A DNA stretch of 36,594 bases from Candidatus Poribacteria bacterium (GTDB lineage: Bacteria; Poribacteria; WGA-4E; WGA-3G), in assembly GCA_003635305.1 (NCBI GenBank), contig PYJE01000183.1:1-36594 (forward strand), given 5' to 3'. Below are positions 14,850 through 16,736 of this stretch, piece by piece. A program made the position numbers and the translations under genes. The first letter of the stretch is position 1, and the number at the start of each line of letters is the position of its first letter. The notes under the pieces are model-generated. The model saw only the letters and a list, made by a program, of their open reading frames with translations. It was not told where the DNA came from and did not search any database.

Positions 14850-15209
14850 CTAGAGTTCACCCGTAATTTCCAAGAGGGTTCCAAGTTTTTGTAACACCTC
14901 TTCCATCGTTTCATCGGGCATTTCGCAGATAAATATGGCTTCCCGTTCCGGCCACGCTATGCACCGGACCTGGTCTGCGAGAATAACCCCAACTATAGGC
15001 AATCCGGTAGGGATAGGCACCTCAAAAGGGTAGCCTTTGACTCGCGTCGTGATTGGACAGATGACTGCCAGCTTCGCGTCTCGGTTGTATTCGCTTTGCG
15101 ATAGGACAAGGGCGGGACGATGGCCGGCCTGCTCAGACCCTTTGTGAGGGTTCAAGTCAATCCATACCACATCGCCTCGCCACGGAAAGTAATCGGTTGT
15201 TCCTACCAT
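14850..15209 (-). CDS. mazF: MazF/PemK-family type II toxin (endoribonuclease)
   Basis: FPWRGDVVWIDLNPHKGSEQAGHRPALVLSQSEYN; VICPITTRVKGYPFEVPI. Confidence 0.92.
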   Translation of the reverse strand: MVGTTDYFPWRGDVVWIDLNPHKGSEQAGHRPALVLSQSEYNRDAKLAVICPITTRVKGYPFEVPIPTGLPIVGVILADQVRCIAWPEREAIFICEMPDETMEEVLQKLGTLLEITGEL

Positions 15210-15607
15210 ACCTCTTTGCCCACCGGCGGCCCGAAGTCAATCTCTTCGTGCCGGTTTTCCTCTGTGATTTGTGCCAAGAGGTCTTTGAGCGTGTAATCCG
15301 GCTTCCTGACACGGATGCGCGGTTCCTCCGTTCGAGTCCGTTTAGCAGGAGAGGGTGCTTTAACCTGTTCCGCATCCGGGGACTGCTTCAGTTCCTCTGC
15401 ACGAAAGAAATACGTCTCTTCCGGAATCTCGCGCACCGGTTGCCCTGCACACGCCACATCAACTGCGGTTTGCTCAGCGTCTTCCGATTTGGGCAGCTGC
15501 GCTAAAAGAGCTGCCAGCGTATAATCAGGTTTCCTGACACGAATACGCGGTTCTTCTGTCCGCGTGCGCTTGCCTGGAACCTTAAGATTGTTCTTTTCAG
15601 GAGTCAT
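15203..15607 (-). CDS. Atypical MazE-like antitoxin with duplicated C-terminal MazF-interaction-type motif
   Basis: C-terminus DYTLKDLLAQITEENRHEEIDFGPPVGKEVW is MazE-like; KRTRTEEPRIRVRKPDYTL occurs twice; 7-nt overlap (ATGGTAG) with toxin start; GGAAGG RBS upstream. Confidence 0.82.
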   Translation of the reverse strand: MTPEKNNLKVPGKRTRTEEPRIRVRKPDYTLAALLAQLPKSEDAEQTAVDVACAGQPVREIPEETYFFRAEELKQSPDAEQVKAPSPAKRTRTEEPRIRVRKPDYTLKDLLAQITEENRHEEIDFGPPVGKEVW

Positions 15608-15722: not shown

Positions 15723-15752
15723 ATTATAGCACAGTGCGCGTCCAAATAGCAA
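15723..15752 (-). promoter_or_regulatory. Putative sigma70-type promoter for the toxin-antitoxin operon (TTGCTA-18 nt-TATAAT, extended -10 TGCTATAAT)
   Basis: Reverse complement of attata...tagcaa, upstream of antitoxin start at 15607. Confidence 0.5.
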
Positions 15753-15772: not shown

Positions 15773-16162
15773 CTACGTCGTCAATACCCCGGTCGAAGCA
15801 TGGATTTGGACAAATTTCCATGCCCCATCAACCCTTTCCAAAACCCCTGTCATCCGCATGACAAACTCTTCGATTGGGTTTCCTTGCCACCGGAGCCGCC
15901 AGATTTGTCGCGTATAGAACCACGCCGCCTCGTTCCGCACTTGCACATCAAGGTTGAGAAAGGTGATGCTGAAATCCTCGGTGCTGGCGACATGGTTCTC
16001 ATAATACGCTGCAATTTCCGAGCCGCCTGTGAGAATCTCCCCGGCATCCGTTCCGATTTTCACGTAGTGCGAAACGGGATGCATGAGCTCGATGAGGTTT
16101 TCAGCATCTCTGGCGACGAGCGCGTCAAAATACGCTGTCACCGTATCATGCGCAGTCTTCAT
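15773..16162 (-). CDS. SnoaL-like / NTF2-like fold protein
   Basis: TVTAYFDALVARDAENLIELMHPVSHYVKIGTDAGEILTGGSEIAAYYENH...; start at ATG 16162. Confidence 0.75.
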   Translation of the reverse strand: MKTAHDTVTAYFDALVARDAENLIELMHPVSHYVKIGTDAGEILTGGSEIAAYYENHVASTEDFSITFLNLDVQVRNEAAWFYTRQIWRLRWQGNPIEEFVMRMTGVLERVDGAWKFVQIHASTGVLTT

Positions 16163-16736
16163 GGTGAATGCCGGTGAGTGCGTTCCACAAGGCACCGCTC
16201 ATTTGTTCGCACGCCTGCACGACGGTGGTTTGCGCGTCCGATGGCAGCGCGCCGATGCGCGCCAGCAGTTTTTCCGCTTCGTGCTCGTTGTGCGAATGCG
16301 TCTCAAAATACGGCTCCACTTTTTCGGGAAGCCGATAGAACTGCTTCAACCCGGCGAGTTTGGATTGCGCTGTGGCGGGTTGCTGCGCCTCAAACGCGTA
16401 GAGCGCGCCCAACGCCGTTGCCGGTTCAGCAAAGAGTGCGTCTGCTGTCTGCAGCAACGCTTTCACTTGTGGAATCTGTGCTTCGGCGACGGCGGTGTCC
16501 AGTCCGTCGGCGAAGTCAGCCCACATATCGATGTGTTCTGTCTCCTCTTCGGCGGTTTCGGCATCGTTCAGCGTCTCCCATCCCTGAGGTAGGGTGGCGA
16601 TGAAGGCACCGTATTCACGCGCATAGTGCTGCAAGGATGCGACGGGCAGCTCGCCAGCACTCCACGCTTGATAGAACGGGTGGTTGAGTAAGTTGTAATC
16701 TGCGATTTTGGCATCGAGTTGTTGCTTGATATTCAT
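16146..16736 (-). CDS. Heme-oxygenase-like/CADD-type iron-containing redox protein
   Basis: NHPFYQAWSAGELPVASLQHYAREYGAFIATLPQGW; EEETEHIDMW; ETHSHNEHEAEK. Confidence 0.75.
   Translation of the reverse strand: MNIKQQLDAKIADYNLLNHPFYQAWSAGELPVASLQHYAREYGAFIATLPQGWETLNDAETAEEETEHIDMWADFADGLDTAVAEAQIPQVKALLQTADALFAEPATALGALYAFEAQQPATAQSKLAGLKQFYRLPEKVEPYFETHSHNEHEAEKLLARIGALPSDAQTTVVQACEQMSGALWNALTGIHHEDCA

Follow-up and report, generated by a model that had tools for sequence, protein, structure and literature searches.

A MazE-like antitoxin without an AbrB domain and with a doubled toxin-binding segment: a family proposed to cap both site-II pockets of MazF

Introduction

MazE and MazF form a textbook toxin-antitoxin pair and have served as a model for conditional cooperativity, which depends on an antitoxin that is dimeric and binds DNA. 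The MazE proteins of M. tuberculosis and Bacillus have ribbon-helix-helix domains, and a disordered C-terminal segment neutralises MazF. To our knowledge, they retain a DNA-binding domain, though of another type, and do not have a doubled tail.

When E. coli MazE is bound to the MazF dimer, site III is occupied by MazE residues 48-53, site II by residues 54-67 and site I by residues 68-82; a peptide of residues 54-67 is by itself sufficient to inhibit MazF, while peptides 48-53 and 68-82 do not inhibit it (PMC12557383). Two helical SamF peptides are accommodated per MazF dimer, at two identical pockets that correspond to site II, and in the MazE complex a pair of MazF dimers shares a single MazE dimer, so that each MazF dimer receives one tail (PMC12557383). 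Type II antitoxins without a DNA-binding domain are known in tripartite systems, namely epsilon (omega-epsilon-zeta) and PaaA2 (PaaR2-PaaA2-ParE2) (PMC4803016). A search of the literature, largely of papers available without subscription, found neither a MazE-type antitoxin without a DNA-binding domain nor a doubled MazE tail.

The locus and its toxin gene

In the window (the whole stretch of DNA analysed, 36,594 nt, from a Candidatus Poribacteria contig), the antitoxin gene is an ORF of 134 aa on the minus strand (15203-15607). It lies immediately 5′ of mazF, and the antitoxin stop overlaps the mazF start by 7 nt. The product of mazF (14850-15209, minus strand; 119 aa) matches PF02452 (E=8.9e-27; 93.9 bits against a cut-off of 23.1) and, in the PDB, the MazF proteins of D. 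radiodurans (2.3e-29) and E. coli (1ub4; 1.5e-24). The gene looks intact, and an Arg (in GHRP) and a Thr (in CPITT) that are the counterparts of the catalytic residues of known MazF proteins (PMC8086154) were identified by inspection. With this toxin gene adjacent to that of the antitoxin, the pair is classified by sequence as a type II toxin-antitoxin module with a MazF/PemK toxin (PF02452).

The 5′ neighbour of the antitoxin gene is a SnoaL-like gene (15773-16195), approximately 165 nt away, and the 3′ neighbour of the pair is an FGE-sulfatase-like gene. Examination of the neighbouring genes revealed no separate regulator gene between or beside the antitoxin gene and mazF. A promoter-like element, TTGCTA-18-TATAAT, was found 5′ of the antitoxin gene by inspection (15723-15752, minus strand), and alignment showed that it is kept as TTGATA-18-TACAAT in L008, the orthologue from the same genus (loci are designated by L and a number).

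A MazE tail without an AbrB domain

The last 34 residues of the antitoxin (101-134) align with residues 49-82 of E. coli MazE (1MVF/1UB4, E about 3e-5). The NCBIfam MazE family PRK09798 also matches across positions 49-82, with a value of 2.5e-7 that lies below the whole-protein cut-off of that family. Using the site definitions of PMC12557383, a complete MazE toxin-binding tail is located at aa 100-134 (15206-15310, minus strand), equivalent to E. coli MazE residues about 48-82. This agrees with the initial annotation, which had reported a typical MazE C-terminal tail and had further suggested that the AbrB/SpoVT domain is lacking.

The second point also held. No Pfam or NCBIfam AbrB match was found in residues 1-100, and no convincing match to either database was found for the antitoxin outside its tail. 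Among the family representatives, none of 27 match the AbrB families. When PF04014 was searched in all frames of the whole 4.35-Mb assembly (87 % complete), there was no match over the cut-off and the best signal (E=0.38) was on another contig; all 14 control genomes gave some signal, over the cut-off in 9 of them. The AlphaFold2 model of the antitoxin, made with a 27-row family alignment, has a mean pLDDT of 66 and a pTM of 0.23, with low confidence outside the two copies of the repeat described below. It contains no AbrB fold and only two short helices, one per copy. Each copy is modelled as the same strand-like stretch followed by a short helix, with pLDDT of 82-85 in the best blocks, and the model suggests a chain that has no fold of its own apart from this local structure. 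A hidden AbrB fold is rejected on the basis of the domain searches, the AlphaFold2 model and the genome-wide PF04014 search taken together. We regard the protein as a MazE-like type II antitoxin in which the AbrB domain, responsible for DNA binding and dimerisation, has been lost or was never present, and it should be filed as an AbrB-less MazE-tail antitoxin and not as an AbrB-type MazE.

The doubled block

A block of 27 residues is present twice in the antitoxin (PGKRTRTEEPRIRVRKPDYTLAALLAQ and PAKRTRTEEPRIRVRKPDYTLKDLLAQ), with 24 of the 27 positions identical. The repeat score is 108, compared to a maximum of 30 among 2000 shuffles, and the duplication of the linker and first interaction motif that had been noticed by eye is thereby confirmed. 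Copy 1 (aa 11-39; 15491-15577, minus strand) comprises the linker, a site-III-like VRKPDY and the helix TLAALLAQ (AlphaFold2 helix 31-36, pLDDT 82-85 in residues 21-40). Copy 2 (aa 87-115; 15263-15349, minus strand) has the same linker and site III, followed by the helix TLKDLLAQ (AlphaFold2 helix 107-113). In the alignment with E. coli MazE, the doubled block corresponds to residues ~48-67, which fill sites III and II, and not to residues 68-82. The doubling stops at the end of site II, and the unduplicated rest is the site-I segment.

At the DNA level, the copies (15270-15350 and 15498-15578) are 72-73 % identical. Synonymous sites are saturated (pS 0.89, pN 0.07), and the same codon is used for 7 of the 24 identical, synonymously variable residues, where 7.9 would be expected from codon usage alone. 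A recent duplication, gene conversion or an assembly error would be expected to leave similar DNA, but here the protein alone has been kept, which indicates that the copies are old and constrained, and that their protein identity has been maintained by selection.

The repeat period in the window is 76 residues (2 x 38), compared to the usual 41 elsewhere. The middle stretch QPVREIPEETYFF (aa 56-68; 15404-15442, minus strand) is homologous to the linker that is doubled in L008, and is perhaps the remnant of a third unit. A search for a third degenerate unit using the window protein alone was not significant (p=0.25), and the resemblance of QPVREIPEETYFF to the L008 linker is indirect backing. 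Duplication of the full tail was also considered and is unsupported, as the scores for a GPPVGKEVW-like remnant 3′ of copy 1 were not distinguishable from those of shuffles (p=0.08 in the window and 0.09 to 0.97 in others).

Distribution of the family

With the window protein as query, matches were found in 55 of 87 genomes from the same phylum, and the MazF toxin family is present in 74 of the 87. About 110 loci were taken around matches to the window protein or to MazF, together with a few further loci from other collections, and the proportions given here are therefore those of this sample and not a census. Among 98 tail-bearing ORFs, 19 include AbrB-like sequence, as judged by motif, and 79 do not. 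Two of the 98 (L031 and L032) are from outside the phylum and a few of the 79 are fragments. Most of the AbrB-less ORFs adjoin mazF, and nearly all are from the same phylum. The initial annotation had proposed a search for homologues with the same duplicated motif, and a strong internal repeat was found in 39 of the 79; the remaining 40 have a single good copy.

The repeat period is 41 residues in 28 of the doubled genes and 40 to 47 in ten, with the window standing apart at 76. The helix pattern [TKS][LVF]xx[LV][LM V] is kept by both helices in all 38 doubled genes that could be anchored by motif, the 39th, L008, having a different linker. In many of the single-copy members a first helix is still recognisable, in degenerate form and at a similar distance, which suggests that two units are the ancestral state. 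Many relatives (L002, L009, L015, L016, L070, L118, L119 and others) have an N-terminal conserved hydrophobic stretch, ECLxxxAYLxxL, that is absent from the window protein.

Searched against the PDB, the family profile (A1) retrieved MazE tails only. Outside the phylum, one scan of reference genomes yielded just a 43-aa Oceanobacillus ORF and an AbrB-type MazE from Sphingomonas. Three of 399 genomes from another phylum had a match, in each case limited to the tail end of the profile, and viral contigs had none to the family. The antitoxin belongs to a whole family of AbrB-less antitoxins in its phylum that has apparently been undescribed so far.

Bare MazE tails were also seen elsewhere. In small enterobacterial plasmids of the ColE1/ColRNAI type, a product of 49 aa annotated as a 'hypothetical protein' (WP_003978816.1, with its relatives) consists of a MazE tail, EYDLFDLMAQVTEENLHAPVDFGPPVGREAL, with no AbrB. 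It is found at L144:598-747 (NZ_AP027826.1) and in 565 plasmid records. No mazF is annotated beside it in four plasmids examined, and it is possibly an orphan anti-MazF (anti-addiction) peptide. The ORF in Oceanobacillus saliphilus (L031:2965-3099; 43 aa) likewise consists of a MazE tail only and is followed by a terminator-like hairpin, with no mazF in the surrounding kilobase.

Evolution of the repeat

Several linker types were distinguished, FGPPR.EKGS, KPHRTPPPPRRRKPK, VPNRSIPEEAYSP, KPHREEK.GRPP, PPPKKERGPVPPP and KRTRTEEPRIRV, and each goes with one MazF clade. Linkers are 82 % identical within a gene and 23 % identical between MazF clades at the same position, and the corresponding values for the helices are 80 % and 55 %. 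That linkers are alike within a gene and bound to a clade is what would be predicted for two copies that recognise one and the same surface of the partner.

The copies have not been kept alike in the same way throughout. Among close orthologues, changes were predominantly concerted in L070/L084 (11 concerted versus 4 position-specific) and exclusively so in L091/L096 (11 versus 0), which points to gene conversion or re-duplication. The reverse was found for L005/L011 (0 versus 19) and L003/L004 (0 versus 16), which points to a long independent life of both copies under constraint. In most FGPP-clade genes, as in the window, synonymous sites are near saturation and the protein is conserved (pS 0.52-0.98, pN 0.07-0.18). 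In some genes (L009 and L126) the copies are identical in DNA. From these DNA comparisons, the likeness of the copies in some clades is attributed to recent duplication or gene conversion and not to selection.

In a MazF tree of 63 rows, which is a guide only, given a short alignment and several long branches, there are switches between the doubled and the single form. The best tree has 9 changes; at least 5-6 changes fall on well-supported branches, which for the doubled label force at least 6. One and two copies are also found in close orthologues (L124 versus L018, L128_72 versus L015_45, and L025 versus L028). Beyond what the initial annotation described, the window antitoxin thus has relatives throughout the clade, forming a family whose members change between one copy and two, and many of these relatives have a degenerate first copy.

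Some of the loci include a damaged toxin gene. The L008 locus is syntenic with that in the window and its antitoxin has a doubled linker of another type, QPVREFPEEAYFF; there, an internal deletion has left only a scar of mazF (the remnant is MVRTEVLQKIRQLLRIPLGP, ending in a stop) and the antitoxin frame is open, so that the toxin has been lost and the antidote kept. The second MazF of the genome that includes the window, L119 (G000:C101:22447-24252), has an internal TAG, and its antitoxin is AbrB-less and doubled, with AT-hook-like KRGRPPGLPRLKL linkers. In L068 and L095, another antitoxin-like protein (MITISKELRQAIQESKDNLVRLIDPETNT...) has a VPNR-type MazE tail fused at its C-terminal end, and the neighbouring MazF is interrupted by a stop.

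Possible modes of MazF binding

The C-terminal 35 residues would be expected to bind the MazF dimer as the canonical MazE tail does, in which case site III would be covered by an extended strand, one site-II pocket would be filled by an amphipathic helix and the acidic end would run along the central site I. Copy 1 would provide a second site-III/site-II module. The most likely place for this module is the other site-II pocket of that MazF dimer, related to the first by symmetry, and one flexible chain would then block both catalytic edges. We infer that MazF is bound by copy 1 as well, and that both copies sit on one dimer. The part that has two pockets is doubled, unlike the part placed along the central groove, of which there is only one, and it is for this reason that copy 1 is proposed to cap the second pocket. 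We assign a probability of roughly 0.55 to this reading, namely that the protein is a MazE antitoxin without AbrB and that its two helices cap the two site-II pockets of a single MazF dimer. Counted in its favour are the mazF gene directly 3′, the MazE tail alignment, the published inhibition by the site-II peptide and the two site-II pockets per dimer (PMC12557383), the pattern kept by both helices, the synonymous saturation, the likeness of linkers within genes and the structure that AlphaFold2 predicts alike for the two copies. Counted against it are that the tail in site I might hinder entry to the second site-II pocket, that the spacing in the window departs from the usual one, that doubled and single forms have switched several times, and that in some clades recent duplication or gene conversion accounts for the likeness of the copies. 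The 40 AbrB-less members that have just one good copy, in some cases preceded by a degenerate first helix, indicate that the second helix is non-essential in the family; as read from their genes, the single-copy relatives beside an intact-looking mazF show that neutralisation would not always depend on copy 1.

The protein had originally been suggested to bind two MazF protomers or dimers. Binding of two protomers is plausible from the sequence, given that the site-III/site-II segment is doubled and that site II occurs twice per MazF dimer (PMC12557383), and binding of two dimers is retained only as the main rival. In the latter case, the two modules would bind two different MazF dimers, replacing the MazE dimer held together by AbrB and giving a single-chain MazF2-antitoxin-MazF2 complex. 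The canonical complex is MazF2-MazE2-MazF2, the window protein lacks a dimerisation domain, and the inter-helix spacer of 30-65 residues is long enough for such a bridge. However, for a bridge one would expect the entire tail to be present twice, and the site-I segment (68-82), the source of much of the affinity of MazE, is in one copy only, with no remnant of GPPVGKEVW type after copy 1 above the level of shuffles. We consider bridging unlikely.

Regulation of the operon, and whether the repeat has a function

In the KPHRT clade, a dyad, AATTTGA-N9-CAAATTGTGG, is found 5′ of the antitoxin gene in L013, L016, L020, L025 and L028. It overlaps a promoter-like element and is kept though the flanking DNA differs, and it is a candidate operator on this evidence.

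The initial annotation had raised autoregulation through Arg/Lys-rich repeats. On this account, the doubled basic, Pro-rich linkers would bind DNA in an AT-hook-like manner, at two half-sites, and replace AbrB. One clade, which includes the second system of this genome, does have doubled linkers of the GRPP(G) type such as that of L119, the linkers have a net charge of +4 in the window antitoxin and of +7 in the KPHRT clade, and the KPHRT dyad is conserved in five genomes. Nevertheless, across the relatives the charge ranges from -5 to +7, with a value of 0 for the VPNR clade, of -2 to -5 for some of the PPP clade and of -4 for L008, and no operator-like dyad was seen in the alignment of the region upstream of the window gene. 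Because the linkers are positively charged in some clades and negatively in others, binding of DNA is rejected as their general function. It may occur in some clades, but as the explanation of the doubling it is improbable.

Similarly small is the chance that the repeat is a minisatellite without functional consequence, in a disordered antitoxin of which the C-terminal tail alone matters. The flips in copy number between close orthologues and the DNA-identical copies in L009 and L126 would fit, but the window and most FGPP-clade genes combine near saturation of synonymous sites with a conserved protein, and the helix pattern is kept by every first copy examined. That the ORF is a frameshifted or mis-assembled normal mazE, a possibility named at the outset, is virtually excluded, as no support for it was found, dozens of relatives from other assemblies share the AbrB-less architecture, no frame of the genome has a significant PF04014 match, and copies that differ at most synonymous sites are no assembly or frameshift artefact.

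Returning to capping of both pockets, a wider proposal can be made tentatively, at somewhat short of even odds. It is that this is a phylum-specific family of AbrB-less MazE antitoxins in which two helices of one chain cap both catalytic sites of a MazF dimer, the module is renewed by intragenic duplication and gene conversion and the copies change with the toxin, and operon control is not via a DNA-binding domain of the antitoxin.

Significance and comparison with known systems

A natural family that is without the DNA-binding half, doubles exactly the segment whose site occurs twice per dimer and has copies that stay alike over the long term uncouples neutralisation of the toxin from control of transcription. 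A single antidote chain may be enough to plug the two active sites of a paired toxin, and the family makes it testable whether both MazF active sites must be capped, and how balance is achieved in a toxin-antitoxin operon whose antitoxin does not autoregulate it. For the search for short MazF inhibitors, the family is a further source of natural sequences.

Of the known antitoxins, MazE appears from these comparisons to be the closest. The window antitoxin shares with E. coli MazE (1UB4, 1MVF) the C-terminal toxin-binding tail (34 aligned residues), the antitoxin-toxin gene order with overlap and the MazF partner. It is set apart by the absence of AbrB, a defining feature of MazE, and by the doubling of the site-III/site-II segment together with a conserved linker. 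Epsilon and PaaA2 resemble it in being antitoxins without the usual DNA-binding domain, but they act with other toxin families and their operons include a separate regulator gene of a kind not seen at the window pair. SamF, an engineered MazF inhibitor of 12 residues (PMC12557383), resembles it in that a site-II helix alone suffices for inhibition and two are bound per dimer. However, SamF is artificial and unlinked, whereas the window antitoxin is a natural chain with two such helices.
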